A stretch of DNA of 64,000 nucleotides. It comes from Sphaerisporangium album. GTDB taxonomy: Bacteria; Actinomycetota; Actinomycetes; Streptosporangiales; Streptosporangiaceae. Numbering within the stretch: position 1 is the stretch's first letter; the number at the start of each line of letters is the position of its first letter. Below the pieces are notes generated by a model, which saw nothing but the letters and a program-made list of their open reading frames with translations, was not told where the DNA came from and searched no databases. Below are positions 3,597 through 47,370 of this stretch, one piece after another. A program made the translations under genes and the position numbers. Location of the stretch: positions 62,001 through 126,000 of the forward strand of contig NZ_QOIL01000006.1 in the NCBI RefSeq assembly GCF_003323745.1, written 5' to 3'.

Positions 3597-4015
3597 CGCG
3601 GCGACGACGCCTGAAGTTCGGCGCGCACGGCCGGGGTCAGCACCTGGCCGGCACGCTCGACCATCAGCGTCATCTGATAGGCGACCAGGCCCATGTCACA
3701 GTCGGGCGCGGCGAGCACGGCGAGACAGGAGCCGTCGCTGACCGACATGATCAGCAGAAGCCCCCGCTGCATCTCCACGACGGTCTGCGTGACCGCCCCG
3801 CCCTCGAAAACCCGGGAGGCGCCCTGGGTCAGGCTGATCAGACCCGCGGCCACCGCCGCGAGCTGGTCGGCCCTGTCCTTCGGGAAGCCCTCGGAATAGG
3901 CGAGTGGCAGCCCGTCGGAGGACACCACCACCGTGTGCGCCACCCCCGGCACCGACCGGACGAAGTCGGTGATCAACCAGTTGACTCCGCGGGCGGCCTG
4001 GCTCAGCTCTCTCAC
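3593..4015 (-). CDS. cvnB: Conservon 1 Roadblock/LC7 protein CvnB
   Basis: This 140-residue Roadblock/LC7 protein is of the type that regulates small GTPases, presumably CvnD here. The sequence MRELSQAARGVNWLITDFVRSVPGVAHTVVVSSDGLPLAYSEG (first part shown by its key residues NWLITDF and DGLPLA) carries the LC7 beta-sheet core. It ends with QMTLMVERAGQVLTP. It starts at a GTG whose last two bases are part of the cvnA stop codon (GTGA). Bases 3732-3889 are identical to the same part of cvnB at 13114, including all silent positions, which suggests recent gene conversion. Confidence 0.93.
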   Translation of the reverse strand: MRELSQAARGVNWLITDFVRSVPGVAHTVVVSSDGLPLAYSEGFPKDRADQLAAVAAGLISLTQGASRVFEGGAVTQTVVEMQRGLLLIMSVSDGSCLAVLAAPDCDMGLVAYQMTLMVERAGQVLTPAVRAELQASSPR

Positions 4016-7000
4016 TTGTCCTCCTTATCGCCCTGTGTGCGCCGCAGGTCGGTGTTGAACGCCACCTCTTCCTCGCTGAGCTCCCCGCGGGCGACCGCCC
4101 GGCCCTGGCGGATGCCCTGCTGGAAGCTGGACAGCCGGCTGCGCGCCCGGTCGGGCGAGAGCGGGGGCATGGCGGGGACGGATGAGGTGGCGTGCTCGGC
4201 GCCTGTCGCGGACCCGGGCACCAGATTGGCCTTCGGAACCCGCTTGGGAAGGCCCGCCATGGTGGTCCCGTCCCGGACGGGCTCCTGCACCACGGCCGCG
4301 GCCTGCCAGCCGGCGTCGGCGGGGTTCTGCTGCCAGGCGCCGGTGTCCTTCTCCTTGTCCTGCACCGGGTCCGCGCGGCGGAACCAGGCGGACTCGACGG
4401 AAGCGAAGATCGGCAGGAACTCGTCCTCCTGTTCCATCGGGGAGGGCCGCACGGCCGGTAAGGGCCCGGTGACGGCGTCCAGGTCAGAGGTTTCGTAGCG
4501 GCGGGGCCGCATGCGGGTCGGCAGCTCGCCCGGCCCCGTGGGAGGACCGGCGTACCCGCCGGAGCCGGTGGCCGGTCCCCCGGCGCCCGGACCCTGCGGG
4601 CGCCCGCCGAACAGGCTCGGCCCCGTGCCCGGCCCGGCGTAGCCGCTGGAGCCGGTCGTCGGCCCGCCGAAGCCGGACCCCGTGGAGGGCCCGCCGAAGC
4701 TCGAAGACCCCGGGACCGGCCCGCCGAAGGCGTCCGTGCCTCCCGCCGGATCGCCGTAGCCCCCCGCGCCGGCGGTGGGCGGCCCGCCGAACGCGGACGG
4801 ACCCATCGCGTCGTCGAACGCGCCGGTCACGGGCCCGCCGAATCCGCCGGCGGTGCCCGGCCCGGCGAACCCGCCGCCGGTGGTCGGGCCCAGGGGCCCC
4901 GTCCCGTTGGTCCCGAAAGTGGCCGGGCCCGTGGGCGAGCCGAACAGCGCCCCGGCCTGGGCGTCGAACCCGCCCTGCGAGGCGGAGGCGAACAGGTTCT
5001 GTCCGCCGGGCTGGCCGGACCCCGACCAGGCGGACGCGCCCGCGAACGCCTGCCCGCCGGAGGAAGAAGAGGAAGAGGAGGAGCCGCCCGCCGGGTGGGC
5101 GGACATGCCCATGAGCGACTCGGGCAGCAGCACCATCGCGGTCAGGCCGCCCGCGTCGTGCCTGCGCAGCTGGACGCGGATGCCGTTGCGCAGGGCGAGC
5201 CGGCCGACCACGAACAGGCCCATGCGGCGCGACACCGACACGTCCACGACCGGCGGGTTGGCCAGCCGCCAGTTGGTCTGGGCGAGTTCCTCCTGTGTCA
5301 TGCCGATGCCCGCGTCGGTGATGGAGATCATCACGCCGCCGCCGTCGATGCGGTTGGCCGAGACCGTCACCCGGGTCTCGCGCGGGGAGAACGAGATGGC
5401 GTTCTCGACGAGCTCGGCGAGCAGGTGGATGACGTCGTTGACGGCCTGGCCGGCGATCGAGACGCCGGTGGGGACGTGCATCGCCACGCGCTCGTAGTTC
5501 TCGACCTCCGACAGCGAGGCGCGGGTGACGTCGAGCAGGGGCACGGGCTGGCTCCACCGGCGCGCGGGCTCCTGGCCCGCGAGGACCAGCAGGTTCTCAC
5601 TGTTGCGCCGCATGCGGGTGGCCAGGTGGTCCAGGCGGAAAAGATCGCCGAGCCGCTTGTCGTCCTGCTCGCCCTGCTCCAGGCCGTCGATCAGGGTGAT
5701 CTGCCGCTCGACCAGCGTCTGCGTCCTGCGGGAGAGGTTCACGAACATGGCGCTGACGTTGCTGCGCAACTGGGCCTCGTCGTTCGCGAGCCTGATCGCC
5801 TCGCGGTGGACCTCGTCGAAGGCCCGGGCGACCTCACCGACCTCGTCGTTGGACATGACGCCGATGGGGGCGACCTCCGGCGCGCCCGCGGTGCCCTCCG
5901 ACTCGCGCAGCTTCTGCACCATCTCGGGCAGACGGCGTCCGGCGATCTCCAGGGCGCCGCCGCGCAGCCGCCGCAGCGGGAGGACGAGGGAGCGGGCCAT
6001 GATGGCGGTGATGGCCAGGACCAGGATCATCAGCAGGACCACCGCGCCGATGTTGATGGCGGCCTGGTTCTGCTCGGCGCGGGCCAGCTCGGCCGCCTGG
6101 TCGACGATGGACCGTCCCAGCGCGCGTTGCACGTCGTGCATGCGGTCCAGCCGCTCGCTGGCGGCGCCGAACCAGTAGTCCACGTCGTTGGTGCCGCCGC
6201 CGAGGCCGCGCAGGAACTGGTTCTGCCGGATCAGCTCCAGCGACCGGTCGACCAGGGCGGCGGCCACGTCGATCTTGGGGCCGCTGACGGTGTCCTGGTA
6301 GAGCTGACCCTGGGTGAGCGTGGCGCGGGAGAAGAACGCCTGCAGCTCGCTGTCCTGCCGGGCGCGCGCGGCGTTGAAGGCGTCCAGCTCGGCCGGGGTG
6401 AACTGCTGGATCGTCAGGCCGATGCTCAGAAGCCCGCGCTGGCGGGAGGACTGCTCGGCGGCGCGGCTGAGGGAGGCCAGCGCGGAGGCGCTCGCGTCCA
6501 GGGTGGCGTCGGTGCTGCCGCGGCCGATCTCGTCGAACATCGTGAGCAGGTCGTCGATCGCCAGCGAGTACTTCTGCAGCGTCGGGAGCGCGGGCAGCTG
6601 GGAGTCGCTCACGGTCTTGCGCAGGGAGTTGAGCTGGGCAAGCCGGTCGAGCAGCCGCTGGTACGGCGGGCGTCCGCTGTCGCGCAGGGCCGGCTCGACC
6701 GTGCTGCGGTGGTCTTGGACGATCTGGACAAGCGCGTCCACGGCGTTCTGCTGGTCGCGCAGCAGCAGCTTGGCCTGGCTTCCGCGCCGGCCGCCCGCGA
6801 CGAACCGGACCGACAGGTCGCGTTCCAGGTCGAGCTGGTGGGCGAGGTCGCCCAAGGTGGCCACGAACTGCGCCACCGTGCGGACGCGGTCGTACTCGGT
6901 CGCGTTCTGGATCGACGTCGCCACCCGGAGACCACCGAAGAGGACGGCCACCAGGGTGGGCACCAGGATGAGCGCGATGAGACGGGTGCGCACCCGCCAG

Positions 7001-7566: not shown

Positions 7567-8547
7567 ATGAGAAGCTTTAGGGGTCGTACCTTCATCGTCG
7601 GCGTGGCCGCGGCTCTCGCGCTCACGGCATGCGGCGGATCGGACACCAGTTCGAGCAATACCGGCGGCGGGCTCGAGAAGACGACGATCAACATCGGCGC
7701 GATGCCGATCGCGGACGTGGCCGGGCTCTTCATCGCCAATGAACGAGGCTTCTTCAAAGAAGAGGGCCTGACCGTCAACGCCAAGATCATCAAGTCGGCG
7801 GCAGAGGCGATCCCCCAGCTTCACAGCGGAGGCCTCGACGTCGCCATCGGCAACTATTTCACCATCATATCGGCCACCGAGCGGACCCCGGACAAGTTCC
7901 GCTTCGTCGCCGACATCTACCAGTCGAAGCCGGACGTTTTCCAGATCGTCGTCCCCAAGGACTCGCCGATCCAGACGGTGAAGGACCTCAAGGGCAAGAA
8001 GGTGTCCGTCGCCTCGCGCAACAGCATCGCCGAGCTGGCCGTGGCCAACTCCCTGCGCACCGCCGGGCTCGACCCCAAGAACGACGTCGAGTGGGTGCCC
8101 ATCGCGTTCCCCCTCGCCCCGCCGGCCCTGAAGAACGGTGACGTCGACGCCTCCTGGCTGACCGAGCCGTTCCTCACCGGCGTCCAGCAGGAGCAGGGCG
8201 CCCGCAAGATCGTCGACACGATGACCGGCGCCATGGCCGACTTCCCGATCGCCGGCTGGGTCGCGATGGACGACTGGACCAAGAAGTATCCCAAGACGAT
8301 GGCCGCCCTCCAGCGCGGCCTGCTCAAGGGACAGCAGATCGCGGCCGCCGACCGCAAGGCCGTGGAGAAGGTGCTCCCGTCCTACACCCAGATCAAGCCC
8401 GAGGTCGCCTCGGTCATCAACCTGGGCTCGTACCCGACCACGCTCACCCCGGCCCGCATCCAGCGCGTCGCCGACCTGATGTTCGAGTACGGCTACCTGA
8501 CCAAGAAGATGGACGTCACCCCCCTCCTGGCCCCGCTGCCTCAATGA
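7567..8547 (+). CDS. ABC transporter substrate-binding lipoprotein, NMT1/SsuA type
   Basis: This is the extracellular solute-binding protein of a nitrate/sulfonate/taurine or thiamine-precursor-like importer. The 326-residue product starts with a lipoprotein signal (RTFIVGVAAALALTAC, lipobox LTAC, Cys at about 22). It then has a type 2 periplasmic fold beginning INIGAMPIADVAGLFIANERGFF, the family signature around the first ligand-binding loop. An AAAGGA ribosome site precedes the ATG. The gene heads an operon with two permeases, an ATPase and an O-methyltransferase. The ligand cannot be read from sequence: sulfonates, aromatic acids and pyrimidine precursors are all possible. Confidence 0.88.
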   Translation: MRSFRGRTFIVGVAAALALTACGGSDTSSSNTGGGLEKTTINIGAMPIADVAGLFIANERGFFKEEGLTVNAKIIKSAAEAIPQLHSGGLDVAIGNYFTIISATERTPDKFRFVADIYQSKPDVFQIVVPKDSPIQTVKDLKGKKVSVASRNSIAELAVANSLRTAGLDPKNDVEWVPIAFPLAPPALKNGDVDASWLTEPFLTGVQQEQGARKIVDTMTGAMADFPIAGWVAMDDWTKKYPKTMAALQRGLLKGQQIAAADRKAVEKVLPSYTQIKPEVASVINLGSYPTTLTPARIQRVADLMFEYGYLTKKMDVTPLLAPLPQ

Positions 8548-9317
8548 TCCGCCGCCGAGTGGCCCGCGGCGCCACCGGCGTCGCGGTCCTGCTCATCGCC
8601 GCCGAGCTGGCCGGGCGCACGGGCCTCGTGGACACCTCGCTCCTGCCCCTGATGTCGACGGTGCTGGCCCGCGCCGCGGAGCTGGTCGCCGACCCGGCGT
8701 TCCTGGCCGACGTCTGGGGGACCCTGATCGTCTGGGCCGCCGGACTGCTGATCGCCGTGGTGATCGCCGTCCCCCTGGGCACGCTGCTCGGCAGCCTCCC
8801 CCGCGCCGAGACGGCCACGCGTCCCCTCGTGGAGTTCCTGCGCCCGATCCCCTCGGTCGCCCTGCTCCCGCTGATCACGCTGCTGATCCCGGACGACTCG
8901 GCCATCAAGATGACCGCGGTCGTGTACGCGGCGGCGTGGCCGTTGCTCGTCAACACCATGTACGGGCTGCGTGACGTCGACCCGATCGCCAAGGAGACCA
9001 TGCGCAGCTTCGGTTTCGGACGGCTCGCCGTGCTCGCCCGGGTATCGCTGCCGAGCGCGGCGCCGTTCGTCCTGACGGGCGTGCGGCTCGCCACCGCGGT
9101 CGGCCTGATCGTCGCGGTGAGCGCGGAGCTCATCACCGGCGGCACGGCGGGGGTGGGCGCCTTCATGATCCGCGCGGGCGCCGGCTTCCGGACGGACCTC
9201 GTCCTGGCGGCCACGCTGTGGGCCGGGGTGCTCGGCCTGGTGGCCAACGCCCTGCTGCTGGAACTGCAGCGCAGGGCGTTCCGCTGGCACGCGGCGACGT
9301 CCGGGGAGCTCTCGTGA
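8544..9317 (+). CDS. ABC transporter permease, SsuC/TauC-like (first)
   Basis: This 257-residue inner-membrane permease has about six hydrophobic segments. The ATPase-contacting loop is at GLRDVDPIAKETMRSFGFGRLAVLARVSLPSAAP, the EAA motif of BPD-type permeases (key residues G, A, SFG, LP). Its ATG overlaps the stop codon of the binding protein (ATGA). A second, different permease follows, so the channel is probably a heterodimer rather than the homodimer usual in Ssu systems. Confidence 0.88.
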   Translation: MIRRRVARGATGVAVLLIAAELAGRTGLVDTSLLPLMSTVLARAAELVADPAFLADVWGTLIVWAAGLLIAVVIAVPLGTLLGSLPRAETATRPLVEFLRPIPSVALLPLITLLIPDDSAIKMTAVVYAAAWPLLVNTMYGLRDVDPIAKETMRSFGFGRLAVLARVSLPSAAPFVLTGVRLATAVGLIVAVSAELITGGTAGVGAFMIRAGAGFRTDLVLAATLWAGVLGLVANALLLELQRRAFRWHAATSGELS

Positions 9318-40356: not shown

Positions 40357-40521
40357 GTGATCATCGCAGCCCACGGGCTGAAGAAGACGTTCACCACGCG
40401 CGGGCGCAAGGGCGCCCAGACGGTCGAGGCCGTGAAAGGCATCGACCTCACCGTCGAGACCGGAGAGATCTTCGGCGTGCTCGGGCCCAACGGCGCGGGA
40501 AAGCCGAACAACGGATTGTGA
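40357..40521 (+). pseudogene. DrrA-like ABC exporter ATPase, N-terminal fragment
   Basis: The GTG at 40357 (AGGA eight bases upstream) encodes 49 residues ending in GVLGPNGAGK, the Walker A motif. It then runs into the inserted element and stops after five foreign codons. Fusing codon 49 (ends at 40503) to the codon at 46540 gives GPNGAGKTTTIRML in frame and a 325-residue ATPase. The gene is therefore intact apart from the insertion and would be restored by precise loss of the element. Confidence 0.9.
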
Positions 40522-40530
40522 CACTTCTTT
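40512..40530 (+). repeat. Left terminal inverted repeat of the element
   Basis: CGGATTGTGACACTTCTTT is a perfect inverted match to the right end at 46509-46527. The eight outer bases (CCGAACAA) show only partial similarity to the other end. Confidence 0.92.
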
Positions 40531-41338
40531 TGGCGACGCCCCTGACGTGCTCCCATCAACGAGCCAACACCCCGCCGCCAAGACCCCCGCCCCCTTGACT
40601 ACGTAATGTAATCGAACGGTCACCGTGCCCCGGCCCTCCCCGGCCCGCCCACCCACCCCCGGGTCCGTCGTGGCGCGCGACCGCTCACCCTGCATCGACC
40701 GACGCCTCGAAATGGTGCCTTCGGCGCAGTCTCCCCAGGGCGACCCTCACCCAGCCCACACCCGACCACCGCGCGAGCAGCCCCCCGCCGCGTTGCCGAA
40801 AGATTCCGCGCCTCTCGCGACGGCCACGCCCTCAGACAGGTTGCCGAAAGATCCGAGAGCTCTCCGACGGTCCCGAGCACCCTCACAGGCGTTGCCGAAA
40901 CACCGGAACATGAACATCGAGCCGTGCTCTGACGCGAGCAGTTGCCGAAAGAACTGACAGTGTTCTAGGGGCACCGCCTTACAGCGGTCACATTGCCGAA
41001 TTGAGCTTATAAGGATCAAGGGCGGCGCTGACGCGCCGCCCGGCGGCCTTGTGCCCTTCGGCCGGGCATGCGGCCTGGCGGCCGGACCCGGCCGAAGCAC
41101 CGGCCGCCAACACACCACACGCCCAGAACTCAAGATCTACAGGCATCCAACCGCGGAACGACCACGATCAACTCTCCCCCGCAGTGGCGCCGGCCGAACT
41201 CCCTCACGGTCGCCCCTACGGGGTGCCTACGGCATTCCGCCGGCCCCACCGCTCCCGCACACACGACCGGGGAACAGCGTCACCCGCACTGCCGAAAGAT
41301 TCCGCCCTGGTTCGCCTGTGCCTTGATGACGCCGATGG
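40531..41338. other. Noncoding left arm of the element
   Basis: These 808 bases between the left ITR and the methyltransferase stop codon have no credible gene. They hold six TTGCCGAAAGA-type repeats, a hairpin at 41020-41041 (GGGCGGCG / CGCCGCCC) that may end the minus-strand operon, and Pro/Arg-rich shadow frames. A small precursor peptide could still be hidden here. Confidence 0.55.
40791..41000 (+). repeat. Iteron-like array of TTGCCGAAAGA repeats
   Basis: Five copies of TTGCCGAA(AGA) start at 40793, 40841, 40892, 40942 and 40993, spaced 48, 51, 50 and 51 bases. A sixth (CTGCCGAAAGA) starts at 41289 and a seventh, near the right end, at 46292. All point the same way. Only about 11-15 bases are conserved. 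The nearly constant spacing, close to five helical turns, suggests cooperative binding of one protein. Confidence 0.7.
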
Positions 41339-42472
41339 TCACGCGATGGTCGCCCGCCACCGTCCACGCGAAAGCGTGATCTCCCCGCTGGGGCTGATCA
41401 GGACTTTGGAGCCGTAGACCGGGAGACTTCCCTCTATCAGCCACTGCTGCCGGATCTCATCCAAGATGTCCCACAGCCGTCGAGGGCCGCCCTGATGGAC
41501 CAACGGTGCGTCCCCTCTCTGCCCCGTGGCTCTGGCCCATGATCCGTCACGGTGAAGCATAAGAGCCGTCCGCAAGCCGTCCCGATCTTCATTGAACCGG
41601 TGCTCGATACCAGGCGCGGTCACCTCCAGCATCGAGGCCAGCTCCCACGCCTCACGCACATCAGTCACCGGATAACGCCCCGGACCGATCTGTTCCCCAT
41701 CCTGAGCACTTGCCCGATCAGCCAGACCATCCAACGCAGGCTCATAGTCCACACCCGCACGAGTCGCCATGAACCCGGCGCGATCCCACAAGACCCGACC
41801 CACGGCCCCGCCGTCCTCGGTCTTGTCCGCGACGACGATGACCATCGCGTTGGCGATCGTGGTAACCAACCGCCCCTCTGGCCTGAGCGCCACCAGCCAG
41901 CTTGGCGGAAGTGGACGGACAGAAACCGTGGCCACGATCCGGTCATACTCCCCCGGCAAAGGACCAGTGGCGTCACAGGTGACGATGGCAGGCCATAGGC
42001 CGATCTCCGCCAAACGCTCAGTGGCGACCTTGGTCAGGTACGGGTCAACGTCAATACTGGTCACCTGATCGTCGCCGAGACGTTGAGCCAGCAGCGCCGC
42101 TCCATATCCCGAGCCGACCCCCACATCAAGCACGGCCATACCGTCATGGATGTCGGCGTGCCGGAACATGTTCACCACCAGACCCGGCAACGTAGACGAC
42201 GACGTCGGCCGCCCCTCGGGGTGATCGCCGGGCCCCGCATGATCGACATGCAGCGGCCCAACCCGCGTCACCAGCGAGATATCGCTGTATGCCCTGCGCA
42301 TCCACGCCCGCTCATCCGCACGCCCGTCATTCACCGTCCAAGCGCCGCCCGTGTAACTCCACCAGCGCGGTACCAGCAGATGACGAGGGATGGCCGACAC
42401 CGGCCCACGCCATCGGGACATGGGCCGGGTCACCTGGTTTGCGAGTAGTGCAGCGTGGTCTTTCCACGTCAC
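41339..42472 (-). CDS. PCMT-like SAM-dependent methyltransferase
   Basis: This 377-residue protein has a class I methyltransferase core of the protein-L-isoaspartate O-methyltransferase type. SAM motif I is VLDVGVGSGYGA (114-125), preceded by TSSSTLPGLVVNMF in place of the usual PCMT substrate loop. About 180 C-terminal residues of unknown role follow. PCMT-like enzymes with such extensions occur beside peptide-maturation genes in actinobacteria. The GTG at 42472 follows the radical SAM stop codon by 14 bases with a GAGG site, so the two are cotranscribed. A RiPP or protein target is inferred. Confidence 0.78.
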   Translation of the reverse strand: MTWKDHAALLANQVTRPMSRWRGPVSAIPRHLLVPRWWSYTGGAWTVNDGRADERAWMRRAYSDISLVTRVGPLHVDHAGPGDHPEGRPTSSSTLPGLVVNMFRHADIHDGMAVLDVGVGSGYGAALLAQRLGDDQVTSIDVDPYLTKVATERLAEIGLWPAIVTCDATGPLPGEYDRIVATVSVRPLPPSWLVALRPEGRLVTTIANAMVIVVADKTEDGGAVGRVLWDRAGFMATRAGVDYEPALDGLADRASAQDGEQIGPGRYPVTDVREAWELASMLEVTAPGIEHRFNEDRDGLRTALMLHRDGSWARATGQRGDAPLVHQGGPRRLWDILDEIRQQWLIEGSLPVYGSKVLISPSGEITLSRGRWRATIA

Positions 42473-42486
42473 TTCTGGGGTACCTC

Positions 42487-43350
42487 TCAGTACGGGTCCA
42501 CGAGAGTTTCGGCGGGCGAGCAGTCGTTGCCGTCGCTGTCGGGATTGCAGCCCGAGCGCTTGACCGGGACCGAGGCGACAAGCTCACGCCACCGCCGACC
42601 GTACAGGATCTCCGCCAGAGGAGTGGCCTTGACGTTGCCCGCGACCATGAAACGTGACAGCACACACGGCCAGACGTCCCCGTTCGTGCCGATGGCCGCC
42701 TTATTGATCCCGCACCCGCCGCAAAGCTGCGACACGTCAGGACGCGCCAATGTCTCCCGCCCAGCTCCCCGGACTCTGTCGATCCGGGCGTTCATCACGC
42801 CCATGGCCGCCAATTCCGCGCGGGCCTGCCGGACACGCTGACCGTCGACGATTTCGACGATTCCCGCCCTCAGGGCGATACCGCGCCGTACGGCTTCCGC
42901 GACGTTCTCTTTGGTACGGGCATGGCTATTGGCTCGACCCGTGATTGCGGAGTGCTCGGCCGTGTGGTCGGAGTAATAGCTGAAGGCCAGGGATACGTTC
43001 GGGTAGCCGAATAGCTCCCACCACTCCTCGCGAACGTGGACGAGGTTGCTGAACACCTCCACCTTTAGGGCAGTGCCGATCGCGTGCTGAAGAAGTTCGG
43101 TGAATTGCGGGTGCAGAGTGGGTTCGCCCCCGATGAACTGTATTCCCGACGCCCCGGCAGCCGCAGCCTCAGTGATGAGGGTGCTCCAGTCGTCGGCTGT
43201 CATCGTGCCCTGGTCACCGGTCGGCCCCGAGTCGGCATAGCAGTGCACGCAGTTGAGTTGGCACCGGCCGGTTATCTCCAGCTCAATACGCCACCCAGAC
43301 AGCGGGAGGCCAACCATCGCGGACGTGAGTGCCGTCACTTTCGTCTCCAT
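42487..43350 (-). CDS. Radical SAM protein with C-terminal cysteine-rich (SPASM-like) region
   Basis: This 287-residue radical SAM enzyme has the [4Fe-4S] motif CQLNCVHC (Cys 30, 34, 37). The GGE-type SAM contact follows in IQFIGGEPTLHP. Five more Cys (210, 213, 229, 268, 277) in LCGGCGIN, VWPCVLSRF, RSGCNP and NDCSP fit auxiliary cluster binding, as in SPASM or twitch peptide-modifying enzymes. The motif WPCVLSRFM resembles the conserved heme/peptide maturase tail. The ATG at 43350 was chosen because the frame above overlaps the upstream gene. The modification and substrate are unknown. Confidence 0.82.
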   Translation of the reverse strand: METKVTALTSAMVGLPLSGWRIELEITGRCQLNCVHCYADSGPTGDQGTMTADDWSTLITEAAAAGASGIQFIGGEPTLHPQFTELLQHAIGTALKVEVFSNLVHVREEWWELFGYPNVSLAFSYYSDHTAEHSAITGRANSHARTKENVAEAVRRGIALRAGIVEIVDGQRVRQARAELAAMGVMNARIDRVRGAGRETLARPDVSQLCGGCGINKAAIGTNGDVWPCVLSRFMVAGNVKATPLAEILYGRRWRELVASVPVKRSGCNPDSDGNDCSPAETLVDPY

Positions 43351-43367
43351 CCTGTGGAATCGGACAC

Positions 43368-44429
43368 TTAATCGTCGGGCTTTGCATTTGCGCGGGCACG
43401 GCGATTCATCCGGCGCTTCAGCGCCCGCTGTGCGCGTTTGTACCCCCCGCCGCCGTAAAGCTCGGACGCGGTCCTGTTCCCACGTCCCCAAAACCTAGAC
43501 GGGGTCTCGCCCTCGTGCCACAGCCGAAAGAACTGCTGACGTGCAAGAGAGAGCATCGTGGGGAAACCCTTCCGGCTCACCCTTAGTGCCTTGGCTGCAC
43601 CGTCATAATCTCCATACTCGGCCAAAGCCCAGAGCACCTGTCTATTACGCCTACCCATTCGCCGCCAGATCTGCCAGAACGCCAACCGGTCCACTATCCA
43701 GCCTTCATGTGAAGGGGTTGGAGATGCGTGCGTCTGCCAGTAGGCGTAATACCGTGGCATGAATCCGTTCTGGCTCCGTTCAGGATGATCGATGACAACT
43801 CCGCGATAGGCCGAATTCTGGACCACTTGCCTCCAGATCGTTTTCTCCCCATGCGCGATCAACTCATATCGCGTCGGGGGAATCACGCTCGCGCACAGTT
43901 GCTCAGCGATCACCGACCAGGCCAATTCGTACCTCTCTAGAAAACCTTGGAAGCGCCACCGAGAACGATACGCCGCCTGCCTGGCCAGTTCATCTAGGTC
44001 AGCCACGGTGTACCCGTGCCGTACCTCCAGATCCTTACTGCTAAGTACAGCGCCGACGCCCGCCCGCCCGGCATCGTGATCGAAGACGGCGACATCGGGG
44101 ATGTGCACTGATCGGACCTGATCCATCAGTGCGCTGTAGCGCTCCACGATCCGGCGCGCCGCTACGTCAGGCGCGTCGACACGGCACAGAGTGAACACCG
44201 CCCGCCCGGTGCGCTCCGAGATTCGCCCCGTCCACCACCGATAGCGCAACCCCTCCGGGCCAGGGTCGCACCAGACCGTCAGATCGGGATGTACCGACAA
44301 GATCCGGCCGTCCGTAGTGATATCCAGGCTGACAGCTATCCGATATCTCTGTAATTCCCGGCACAACCGCTGCGCAGCTTTGAGCACTCCAGGATTACGC
44401 AACGCCGGTGTCATCGACGGCTCAGGCAT
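43368..44429 (-). CDS. Unknown protein with HTH-like C-terminal region
   Basis: I do not recognise this 353-residue protein. The first 110 residues form a compact segment (AQRLCRELQRYRIAVSLDITTDG). The middle part (about 130-250) has aromatic, helical stretches (AAYRSRWRFQGFLERYELAW). Residues 262-300 resemble a sigma region 4-like helix-turn-helix (NRQVLWALAEYGDYDGAAKA), and the last 45 residues are strongly basic. It has AGGAGG nine bases before the ATG and lies 17 bases upstream of the radical SAM gene. It could regulate the operon, act on the element ends, or be a maturation partner. Confidence 0.7.
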   Translation of the reverse strand: MPEPSMTPALRNPGVLKAAQRLCRELQRYRIAVSLDITTDGRILSVHPDLTVWCDPGPEGLRYRWWTGRISERTGRAVFTLCRVDAPDVAARRIVERYSALMDQVRSVHIPDVAVFDHDAGRAGVGAVLSSKDLEVRHGYTVADLDELARQAAYRSRWRFQGFLERYELAWSVIAEQLCASVIPPTRYELIAHGEKTIWRQVVQNSAYRGVVIDHPERSQNGFMPRYYAYWQTHASPTPSHEGWIVDRLAFWQIWRRMGRRNRQVLWALAEYGDYDGAAKALRVSRKGFPTMLSLARQQFFRLWHEGETPSRFWGRGNRTASELYGGGGYKRAQRALKRRMNRRARANAKPDD

Positions 44430-44583
44430 TGCACCATACCTCCTGCCAGTTCACGTTATGTATTGGACGGAATTGGATGGGGGCGATGGCCCGGGTTGTT
44501 CGATGTCACCGCACCATCGCCCCCCGCTTAAGGGTAGATTCGCCTATTTCCGCAGCGAGATGGCAGCGGAAAATTGATCCGGC

Positions 44584-45030
44584 CTAATCTTTGAAAATGA
44601 CCTCGAACCATACCGTTTTACCAGCCTCATGCCTGAAGGTGCCCCACTCTTCAGAAATCAGACTCACGAGCATGAGGCCCCGTCCCCCCTCGGCGAACCG
44701 GTCGTCTTCGTCGCTGTCGACCATGGCGGGTAGGACGATTTCGCCCCCTGCATCGATGACTTCGACGCGAACGCGACCATGACTTTCGGCGATTGCCACG
44801 GCCACCGTTCCCGTGTTCTTGGATTCGGAATGCATCACCGCATTAGTGACCACCTCGGACACTAAGAGCGTGACGTCGTAAAGAGCGGGGTGGCCGTGCC
44901 TCAGCCTCTTCTGTACGAACTCCCGGGCGAGCGCAACCGACTCCGGAGATGCAGCTAACTCGGTAACACCTAAGAGCGAACCAGGCGCGGCCGTCTCAAG
45001 GCCATGCAACAGGCTCGTAGGATCTGCCAT
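44584..45030 (-). CDS. SpoIIAB/RsbW-like ATP-binding regulatory protein
   Basis: This 148-residue GHKL ATPase domain protein is like anti-sigma or regulatory kinases of actinomycetes. The N box is LVSEVVTNAVMHS (about 57-69) and the G1 box VEVIDAGGEI. GRGLMLVSLISEEWG carries the G2 region. The ATG at 45030 has GGGAGG nine bases upstream. Such proteins typically stand beside an XRE/DUF5753 gene and a DUF397 gene, as here, in the WhiJ/AbaA-like groups that affect development and antibiotic production. It is divergent from the XRE gene. Confidence 0.85.
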   Translation of the reverse strand: MADPTSLLHGLETAAPGSLLGVTELAASPESVALAREFVQKRLRHGHPALYDVTLLVSEVVTNAVMHSESKNTGTVAVAIAESHGRVRVEVIDAGGEIVLPAMVDSDEDDRFAEGGRGLMLVSLISEEWGTFRHEAGKTVWFEVIFKD

Positions 45031-45233
45031 AGATCGCACCCTCCCGTGCGGTTCAGGGACCCGTACGGCGCGCCAACGCCTGCGGGTCCCGCCTATGTGT
45101 GCCCCTCCCACGGCCAGCAGGCGAAGGGGGGTACCGCCAGGCTGCCCGCACATGGCAGGGTGAAGGAAGCAGGAGCACGAGCACAGGCGAGATGCAACCC
45201 CAGGCCGACGACGTGAACCCCCGGAGTACCCCC

Positions 45234-46040
45234 ATGGCTGGAAATGGCGGCATAGCCCGACTGTTCTTCGGGAAAGAGTTACAGATTCACCGCGAAAGAC
45301 ATAACCTTACTCGCGCCTCCCTGGCGAAATCGCTGTATGTCAGCGAATCACTCATCAAGCAATGGGAGAAGGGGCGCAGAATTCCAACTCCCGATCATTT
45401 GTCCCGGCTTGAGGAGTTATTCAAGACTGACGGGATTCTCACCCGAATCCGAGAGGAGTTGGTAACGACCGCAATCCCTCTGGAGTGGTTCGGCCGGTGG
45501 CCCGAGATCGAAAATCGAGCCACCACGCTGTGGTCCGTCCACGCCCACGTTTTCCCTGGACTGCTCCAGACAGAAGAGTACGCGCGCGCGGTTCTGCACG
45601 CTGGAAACCATCTCGCCGATATCGATGAACTGGTAAGCGCGCGTATGGAGCGGCAACAGGTCCTCGCCAAGGAAGACCCTCCGATGATCGTAGCGCTTAT
45701 CATCGAAAGCGCCCTACGATACGGCATCGGCGGCCCCAAGGTTGCGCATGACCAGCTAGTACACATGGTCGAGCTGTCAGAACGCGACGATGTAATAATC
45801 CAAGTAATTCCGAACAGCGTGCCCGCGTGCGCCAGATTTACCGGCCCCTTCGTCATCGCGAACTTCGACGGTGGCGATGATGTCGCCTACGTGGATAACG
45901 CGATTGCAGGCGAGGTCATCGAAGACGCAGAGAGCCTCGTGCGATTGCGCCGGATTTTCGATACCTTGCGAGCCGCCGCCCTATCTCAAAATGAGTCGAT
46001 CGAACTAGTGCAGAAAGTGGCAAGAGAATGGATCTCGTGA
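45234..46040 (+). CDS. XRE-family regulator with DUF5753 (WhiJ-like)
   Basis: This 268-residue protein has an N-terminal helix-turn-helix (about 14-70, with TRASLAKSLYVSESLIKQWE). A DUF5753 domain follows (FPGLLQTEEYARAVL and later ALIIESALRYGIGG). The ATG at 45234 has GGAG seven bases upstream. Codon use is A/T-richer than in the flanking chromosome. In actinomycetes such regulators work with a small DUF397 partner, and here that gene overlaps its 3' end. It may control the divergent minus-strand genes of the element. Confidence 0.88.
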   Translation: MAGNGGIARLFFGKELQIHRERHNLTRASLAKSLYVSESLIKQWEKGRRIPTPDHLSRLEELFKTDGILTRIREELVTTAIPLEWFGRWPEIENRATTLWSVHAHVFPGLLQTEEYARAVLHAGNHLADIDELVSARMERQQVLAKEDPPMIVALIIESALRYGIGGPKVAHDQLVHMVELSERDDVIIQVIPNSVPACARFTGPFVIANFDGGDDVAYVDNAIAGEVIEDAESLVRLRRIFDTLRAAALSQNESIELVQKVAREWIS

Positions 46041-46204
46041 CGTGGCGCAAGAGTTCATACAGCTCCGCAAACGGCGGTGAATGCATTGAGGTGGCGAAGG
46101 TTCCCAATGGGATAGCTGTTCGCGACAGCAAAGACCCGGCGCGAGGCCACCTGATGGTGTCGGCGGAAGCGTTCAACGCGTTCCTCGCCGCTGTGAGGGC
46201 TTAG
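46028..46204 (+). CDS. DUF397 small protein
   Basis: This 58-residue protein begins DLVTWRKSSYSSANGGECIEVA and ends FNAFLAAVRA, the standard DUF397 pattern (WRKSSYS, CVEVA-like, RDSKDP). The ATG lies inside the end of the XRE gene (13-base overlap), so the two are coupled. DUF397 proteins act as partners or antagonists of the DUF5753 regulators. The gene is a cognate pair with 45234-46040. Confidence 0.88.
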   Translation: MDLVTWRKSSYSSANGGECIEVAKVPNGIAVRDSKDPARGHLMVSAEAFNAFLAAVRA

Positions 46205-46508
46205 ATGGGCTAAGAGTTCTGCGGACGGCGAATGTTCACGTACGAGCTTTCGCCTCCGGCGGGGGAGTCCGGCTCCGGGAGCCGGACAGCGTTGCCGAAA
46301 GACCGTAGCCGGTTGCTGTGGAAGCCTGGCCGTCCCGCCTGCCGTCACCCCGGGCAGAGCCAAGCAGACCGGGGGCTAGGGCACAAGATCGTTCGTCCAG
46401 TAGGGCGCTGCATCTTGCGCCCTAGCCCCCGGCCCGCTTCCCCTTCGGGACGGGATGACGGCATACGGGACGACCAGGCAGGGGGTACCTGCTCTCTGAG
46501 CCGCAGAG
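46205..46508. other. Noncoding right arm of the element
   Basis: Between the DUF397 stop codon and the right ITR there is no gene. The stretch holds one TTGCCGAAAGA repeat (46292) and a large inverted repeat (46369-46432), both listed or discussed separately. Confidence 0.5.
46369..46432. repeat. Long inverted repeat near right end of the element
   Basis: Two 21-base arms (46369-46389 and 46412-46432) pair with one mismatch around a 22-base loop. The arms contain GGGGGCTAGGGC and its complement. It could terminate the XRE/DUF397 transcript or be a recombination site. Confidence 0.7.
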
Positions 46509-46527
46509 AAAGAAGTGTCACAATCCG
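46509..46527 (-). repeat. Right terminal inverted repeat of the element
   Basis: On the minus strand this reads CGGATTGTGACACTTCTTT, identical over 19 bases to the left repeat at 40512-40530. Nine bases separate it from the AAG that resumes the host gene. Confidence 0.92.
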
Positions 46528-46536
46528 GTATTGGGG

Positions 46537-47370
46537 AAGACCACCACGATCCGGATGCTCTCCACCCTGATCGCCCCCACCGAGGGCACGGCCGAGGTCG
46601 CCGGGCACGACCTCGTCAGGGAACCCCGGCGCATCAGGGAGCGCATCGGCTACGTCAGCCAGGCGGGCGGCGTGGACGAGTACAACAGCGCCCGCGCCAA
46701 TCTCACGCTCGCGGCCCGCGTCAACGGCATCCCCAGGGCCGAGACCGCGAGCCGCGTGGACGAGATGCTCGCCGCCTTCGAGCTGGGCGACTTCGCCGAC
46801 CGCCCGGCGCGCACCCTGTCCGGCGGGCAGAAGCGCAGGGTCGCCATCGCGCTCGGGCTCGTCCACCGGCCGCCGCTGCTGTTCCTGGACGAGCCGACCA
46901 CCGGGCTCGACCCCCAGAACCGCGCCAACCTGTGGGACCGGATCCGCCTGCTGCGCGCGTCCGGCACCAGCGTGCTGCTGTCCACCCACTACCTGGACGA
47001 GGCCGACGCCCTGTGCGACCGGCTGGCGATCGTCGACCACGGGGTCGTCGTCGCGGAGGGCACCCCGGCCGAGCTGAAGCGCCAGGTCGCCTCGGATGTC
47101 GTGACCCTGCGCCTGGCCGCGGCGGACGACGCGGCGTCGCCGGTGGAGGAGGCGGCCGCGCTGCTGGAGGCCCAGCCGTACACGCGCGAGGTACGCGCCG
47201 ACGGCGAGCTGCTGCGCGTCTACCTGGACGACGGCGAGCACGCGCTGCCGAGCCTGCTGCGCGTGCTGGAGGACCGTTCGCTGGTCATCCGCTCGATCGC
47301 GCTCGACCGCGCCACCCTGGACGACGTCTTCCTCCACAAGACCGGCCGCTCCCTGCGCGACGCGGCCTGA
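46537..47370 (+). pseudogene. DrrA-like ABC exporter ATPase, C-terminal fragment
   Basis: This carries the remaining 276 codons of the interrupted ATPase, beginning TTTIRMLSTLIAPTEG. The signature LSGGQKRRVAIALG, Walker B LLFLDEPTTGLDP and switch His STHYLDEAD are intact, as is the DrrA-type C-terminus (TLDDVFLHKTGRSL). A TTG at 46531 could start translation, but the product would lack most of Walker A and should not hydrolyse ATP. Confidence 0.9.

Follow-up and report, generated by a model that had tools for sequence, protein, structure and literature searches.

What placed a 6036-bp block of DNA inside the Walker A codons of an exporter ATPase gene, and could the same agent take it out again? 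The question is raised by a stretch of 64,000 nucleotides from the actinomycete Sphaerisporangium album (contig NZ_QOIL01000006.1, positions 62,001 to 126,000; hereafter the window), in which a DrrA-like ATP-binding cassette (ABC) ATPase gene is split by an element lying between two AAG codons (40504-46539 of the window). The GC content of this element is 62.7%, lower than that of the flanking 10-kb stretches (71.1% and 71.3%). We think it reasonably likely that the element is a non-autonomous passenger of a site-specific recombination system, similar to the cis-mobilizable elements (CIMEs), that was placed by a large serine recombinase (LSR) acting in trans and could be removed by the same means.

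The interrupted ATPase gene

The reading frame of the ATPase opens with a GTG (40357) and proceeds to GPNGAGK, whose last residue, the Walker A lysine, is encoded by the first AAG (40501-40503); past this codon the 5' part reads into CCGAACAACGGATTGTGA, that is, GKPNNGL and a stop. Directly after the second AAG (46537-46539) the frame picks up with TTTIRML at 46540 and continues to a stop that ends at 47370. The initial annotation of this sequence had described a precise insertion in the Walker A codons, the exact loss of which would restore a protein of 325 residues; its coordinates hold to the base, and the two parts count 49 and 276 codons. It had also proposed a search for empty sites in relatives, and these exist: upstream of the four closest homologs of the exporter permease in the genus (L093-L096; 83, 78, 71 and 62% identity) the ATPase has an unbroken GPNGAGKTTT, a comparison that covers 5 of the 17 loci listed (the window's own and those four), the other 12 permeases being 33-42% identical. 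Since the ATPase is unbroken in four congeners and the frame resumes after the second AAG, no codon was gained or lost by the insertion. For as long as the element is present the exporter ATPase gene should be off, because its first part ends in the short tail described above and its second part is without a P-loop.

The ends of the element

Just inside the two AAG codons lie inverted repeats of 27 nt (40504-40530 and 46509-46535) that are 89% complementary, and the perfect 19-bp repeats reported in the initial annotation are their inner 19 nt. Further copies had been proposed as a thing to look for: the 19-mer itself, at up to two mismatches, occurs in the 9.3-Mb genome at the window's two ends only, and the ends as such recur on another contig of that genome (C27) and in relatives. 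Inverted ends with AAG on both sides could belong to a DDE-type transposon that has terminal inverted repeats, a 3-bp AAG target duplication and some transposase supplied in trans, and the initial annotation had named them terminal inverted repeats flanked by AAG. The symmetry of the ends, however, points elsewhere. In a serine integrase attP, two arms are mirrored around a two-base core. Both ends were located for eight other elements that carry an LSR (7.1 to 15.1 kb in length, with the LSR beside the right end in all eight), and with the window's element they make nine, all of which have arms that agree with each other at 15-24 of 30 positions when folded about the AA of the lysine codon; the mean arm self-match is 18.56 of 28 when centred on this AA and at most 8.89 when the centre is shifted by 1-4 positions either way. 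The short flanks, when joined across the element, give GP[NS]G[AS]GK[TS]T in 9 of 9 cases. It is the same codon each time, and neither Pfam nor NCBIfam recognised a transposase in the window's element. We reject transposon repeats with a target duplication because of the core-centred symmetry and the LSR-bearing relatives, and regard a DDE-type transposon as extremely improbable; the ends match the att arms of serine integrases around a recombined core.

A matrix was also built from 13 right arms that lie between an LSR and the C-terminal half of an ABC ATPase and that were picked regardless of arm sequence. Scored with this matrix, the element's left end ranks first (29.3) and its right end second (23.4) among the window's 127,942 30-mers, the third score being 13.4. 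Left and right matrices built from the eight two-ended relatives agree with the window's ends as well, with the restriction that the left arms had been found by their likeness to the window's left arm (up to 3 or up to 5 mismatches), which makes the left matrix partly circular; because of this choice only the right arms are independent. Judged from their sequence, the ends of the element are almost certainly the attL and attR of an LSR clade, and the AA of the lysine codon, deduced from symmetry, is its probable 2-bp core. Because attP arms mirror around a two-base core, the inverted repeats and the doubled AAG can be explained without a transposase. The AAG annotated on both sides is indeed there, and each copy is best read as a recombined lysine codon rather than as half of a target duplication. 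The features by which an LSR-integrated element is recognised are found together here: P arms around a 2-bp core (placed by symmetry), a precise insertion and no duplication of the target. An integrase gene, which would be dispensable to an element served in trans, was not recognised in it.

Relatives in the Walker A codons of other genes

A scan of genome_contigs with the left-junction pattern returned 13 stretches. Five of these follow GP[NS]G[AS]GK, in Nonomuraea candida, N. corallina, Acrocarpospora pleiomorpha, Sinosporangium siamense and Thermocatellispora tengchongensis, all Streptosporangiaceae (the family was checked for four of the five species); the other eight belong to other phyla, are not preceded by a Walker A lysine and look like chance. 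A search with the Acrocarpospora integrase, in which four first-look candidates were scored per genome, found homologs at an expectation value (E) of 1e-40 or better in at least 33 of 342 genomes of the order. The junction falls at a P-loop lysine codon in 18 of 30 LSR loci, the interrupted genes being ABC_tran in 13 cases, T2SSE in 3 and without a Pfam match in 2, one of which looks by eye like a STAND-type NTPase; the count was 19 before one locus that passed the script (L090) was dropped by hand because its P-loop gene is uninterrupted.

The class of target is clustered on a tree of 31 integrases: all groups together need 5 changes, where shuffling gave a mean of 13.8 and a value as low in 0 of 200 shuffles (C27 was counted as ABC from its left end; L086, which is short, and L060, which has no match, were left out). 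For the two-row group of other P-loop targets the tree shows no clustering (500 of 500 shuffles as low). The three integrases whose junction is in the Walker A codons of a T2SSE gene, encoding a type II/IV secretion ATPase (L070, L073, L076), stand on one side of a well-supported branch.

When the genomes of the order were scanned for the arm at up to 3 mismatches, 52 of the 342 matched; a reversed control pattern also matched in some genomes, so only the sequence context of the matches counts. At 18 hand-chosen sites the arm comes after a Walker A lysine in 15 (R replaces G in one of them and D replaces P in another), the rest being one attP-like site and two without an arm above the score limit. 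The scan pattern demands GGNAAG, by which the lysine is built in and the rest of the Walker A motif is not.

Six elements have LSR, RepSA and FtsK homologs together (C27, G322, G303a, G305, G301 and G051). Elsewhere the LSR is accompanied by Phage_capsid and Prim-Pol genes (the 9.3-kb Acrocarpospora element; G015, L036/L037) or by a Phage_capsid gene (G312b, also of 9.3 kb; L112, G312:C1), both elements lying in ABC ATPase Walker A codons, and in N. corallina by a D5_N primase-like gene; ten proteins were tried for these findings. Relatives that carry capsid or primase genes presumably resemble phage satellites, and it is possible that the Acrocarpospora and G312b elements are phage satellites of rare actinomycetes.

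Two further loci were observed among the relatives. Near position 900 of L203 (G011:C23), on a chromosome-like contig of 8156 bp, there is a complete attP-like site (right arm, GGCAAG, left arm), and no P-loop gene was seen at the site. In L206 (G220:C70:8000-20000) a related left arm follows GDNGAGK; a 367-bp copy (96%) of the ATPase 5' end (3727-4093 and 8281-8647) restores the Walker A region 4557 bp on, and a radical SAM gene lies between the two copies.

A possible helper in the same genome

With a 141-bp left-junction probe, a second ABC ATPase gene cut at the same codon was found on contig C27 (96% identity over 47 bp), the junction pattern being identical to that of the window at 23 of 23 bases. 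The element inserted there encodes RepSA (PF20199, E 3.6e-95), FtsK_SpoIIIE and, at the end of the contig, an LSR with Resolvase and Recombinase domains; by this gene content it is an actinomycete integrative and conjugative element (AICE). Common to it and to the window's element are 230 bp of DNA at 78% identity near one end and a HATPase (47% for the protein), both of which sit at opposite ends in the two elements.

The mechanism that we propose is as follows. A clade of LSRs would use the DNA that codes for the Walker A motif (GP[NS]G[AS]GK[ST]T) as attB, and crossover at the AA of the lysine codon would leave the inserted element between attL and attR, each a hybrid of a B arm and a P arm, and the P arms would resemble terminal inverted repeats. 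A C27-type integrase acting in trans may have recombined the attP on a circular form of the element with the Walker A codons of the exporter ATPase. Excision by that integrase, whether or not a directionality factor takes part, would restore the ATPase exactly. The AICE might also provide for transfer of the element. Mobilization in trans had been suggested in the initial annotation and is the best reading, no recombinase of the element's own being recognised. The 353-residue protein that had been named as a possible mobilizer finds no match in Pfam, NCBIfam, PHROGs or viral_contigs, and for want of a family in the first three it was discarded as a candidate recombinase.

Passenger or remnant

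As the initial annotation had remarked of recombinases and transposases, no recombinase, Rep, Tra or transposase was recognised among the proteins of the element with Pfam and NCBIfam; tblastn with two LSRs and the RepSA and FtsK of relatives agrees, finding no remnant of an integrase, RepSA or FtsK (best E 0.014, over 13 residues). The main rival to a passenger served in trans is an immobile fossil: an AICE or other LSR element that lost its integrase, Rep and Tra after insertion and has kept its arms by chance or recency. Such a history would be in keeping with the HATPase homolog and the subterminal DNA common to this element and the C27 AICE, with the XRE homologs it has in common with other AICEs, and with the existence of a decayed relative, the N. 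candida element, from which the right arm is gone and where, judged by eye, the ATPase C-terminal half is reduced to its tail. We nevertheless hold it unlikely, since both arms score high, six genes of the element are open, the tblastn search found no trace of the supposedly lost genes, and an LSR of the right clade is present in the same genome. That the element is still mobile with help in trans seems to us, on the strength of its sequence, somewhat better than an even chance.

Several observations weigh against the passenger interpretation. Excision and present-day mobility are predictions from the sequence. There is no P-loop junction in 12 of the 30 LSR loci, two of which have less than 130 bp upstream, one of them being C27, whose left end lies in an ABC gene; and L071, within an ABC-targeting clade, has an arm-like end and no P-loop neighbour. 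One of the 13 right arms fits the rest badly (leave-one-out score 1.7), and the arms of the window's element form a more perfect dyad than those of its relatives (17 of 17 outer positions vs 10-14 in the eight), which could indicate a separate history. The C27 contig stops in the integrase gene, leaving the first residues of the integrase outside the assembly, and the right end of the C27 element, also outside the assembly, was not found. Nor was a second integrase-less element with both arms intact found: G302 and G185 have a left arm after GPNGAGK and no right end in the 19.9 kb examined, and G201:C107 is possibly an element of 5.1 kb whose right end is of another kind.

Relation to known systems

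CIMEs are described, in the passage cited, as elements whose integration and transfer genes have been lost and whose attL and attR have been kept (PMC5704250), and TR1 of Streptomyces scabies has been called a CIME (PMC8369830). The window's element is like them in keeping attL and attR, in having no recognised recombinase or transfer genes and in having a related conjugative element in the genome; it differs in that its possible helper is on another contig, its att sites are those of a P-loop-targeting serine integrase and its mobilization is putative. A serine integrase was reported for 19 of 144 AICEs, and one such element of Frankia excised though no directionality factor was identified (PMC3218068). 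Arms and target codon are common to the window's element and the RepSA/FtsK/LSR elements found here, whereas the combination of integrase, Rep and FtsK/TraB by which an AICE is recognised is lacking in the former. One or few target genes were given for 82.8-88.3% of LSR clusters (PMC10083194); the multi-targeting LSRs of that study are similar to ours in that related integrases have several target genes, and differ in that the targets here share one protein motif. The terms 'ABC transporter', 'ATP-binding' and 'Walker' have zero occurrences in its main text.

Two relatives, G015 and G312b, may be likened to capsid-encoding phage satellites, having Phage_capsid and, in G015, also Prim-Pol. The window's element itself differs from them: no integrase, primase, capsid or packaging gene was recognised in it by Pfam or NCBIfam, nor by PHROGs for the two proteins tried. 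The serine integrases of phages and plasmids belong to the same protein family (phrog_95 integrase); identity to the Acrocarpospora LSR is below 60% in all 62 phage and all 10 plasmid records, with 32% and 37% as the highest values among the phage and plasmid matches listed (20 of the 62 phage matches).

On the cited passages, CIMEs, serine-integrase AICEs and multi-targeting LSRs are already known (PMC5704250, PMC8369830, PMC3218068, PMC10083194). What appears to be new is that LSRs use P-loop codons as attB; this novelty rests on a literature search in which none of the titles and abstract openings listed dealt with integrases targeting Walker A or P-loop codons. A clade with motif-coding DNA as its attB shows one specificity reaching many sites; in this genome a single strict Walker A pattern is matched exactly at 20 places. 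Moreover, att arms alone could reveal integrase-less passengers, making trans-mobilization in actinomycetes directly testable, and the arms with their LSRs are possible tools for GC-rich actinomycetes. A bolder view, offered tentatively and with the balance of probability against it, is that a whole serine-integrase clade reads P-loop DNA as its att site, that one code is common to conjugative, phage-satellite-like and integrase-less elements, and that passengers move in trans among exporter ATPase genes, switching each off and on exactly. If that were true, the need to bind ATP would preserve the landing site in genes of different protein families, many of them in any one genome.

The cargo

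Table 1. Features of the split ATPase gene and of the element within it (window coordinates)
Feature	Position	Strand	Basis
ATPase N-terminal part, DrrA-like ABC, ends GPNGAGK	40357..40503	+	reading frame; unbroken in congeners
Left attachment junction: AAG, then left P arm CCGAACAACGGATTGTGACACTTCTTT	40501..40530	+	arm matrices; 23 bases same as C27 AICE
Left segment, no gene recognised, five TTGCCGAA(A) repeats	40531..41338	.	repeats at 40793-40993, spacing 48-51 bp
Methyltransferase, PCMT type; best NCBIfam match TIGR04188, under cut-off	41339..42472	-	Pfam, NCBIfam
Radical SAM/SPASM protein	42487..43491	-	Pfam, NCBIfam
353-aa protein, no family assigned	43368..44429	-	Pfam, NCBIfam, PHROGs
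HATPase_c_2, anti-sigma type; homologs in AICE relatives	44584..45153	-	Pfam, NCBIfam
XRE-type regulator with DUF5753 (open reading frame as listed; start possibly further downstream)	45099..46040	+	Pfam
DUF397 protein	46028..46204	+	Pfam
Subterminal DNA, 78% identical to DNA beside C27 AICE left end	46251..46479	.	sequence comparison
Right attachment junction: right P arm AAAGAAGTGTCACAATCCGGTATTGGGG, then AAG with probable AA core	46509..46539	+	arm matrices
ATPase C-terminal part, TTTIRML..., DrrA1-3_C domain	46540..47370	+	reading frame and domain search

The genes of the element (Table 1) bear on one more explanation, a programmed switch in which the exporter is given back by regulated excision when some condition calls for it. 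The departure of prophages from competence genes is a precedent for programmed excision; here, too, excision at the core would be exact, and the cargo includes an anti-sigma-type ATPase and XRE/DUF397 regulators. Similar regulators, however, are carried by AICEs in other ABC genes, and different P-loop genes are struck by different elements. Homologs of the radical SAM protein at E 1e-45 or better are present in at least 93 of the 342 genomes of the order (six first-look candidates scored per genome), and a methyltransferase gene adjoins the radical SAM gene in 27 of 29 further radical SAM loci returned; because this pair is so widespread, the cargo is not tied to this exporter, and we consider a programmed switch quite improbable. 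In N. candida and G220, too, radical SAM genes are found, some 2 kb inward of the left arm.

In five AICEs (C27, G322, G303a, G305 and G301) a HATPase homolog is found no more than about 3.2 kb from the left end, and three of them (G322, G305 and G301) have an XRE homolog next to it. The HATPase/XRE pair of the window's element is at the right end and in mirror orientation relative to those AICEs; the interior of the element has probably been turned round or rebuilt. As for the 353-residue protein, its N-terminal 100 residues or so match other, mostly shorter proteins in 9 of 11 genomes of the genus, the window's own included, and its single-sequence fold was uninformative (mean predicted local distance difference test score 35.6).

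The TTGCCGAA(A) repeats of the left segment, of which one more copy stands near the right end at 46292, may represent iterons, a site for transfer or sites for a regulator; among the eight relatives TTGCCGAAA is rare, with zero to two copies each when both strands are counted. Just inside the right end there is a 28-nt GC-rich inverted repeat (46362-46439; 89%) with a 22-nt loop, and Rfam gave three matches at one GC-rich hairpin (46356-46442), one of them barely above the gathering score, which we judged to be chance. Near the left end, a 107-bp segment (41171-41276) is 91% identical in C27 and has partial matches in several AICEs; it looks like a common GC-rich palindromic repeat.

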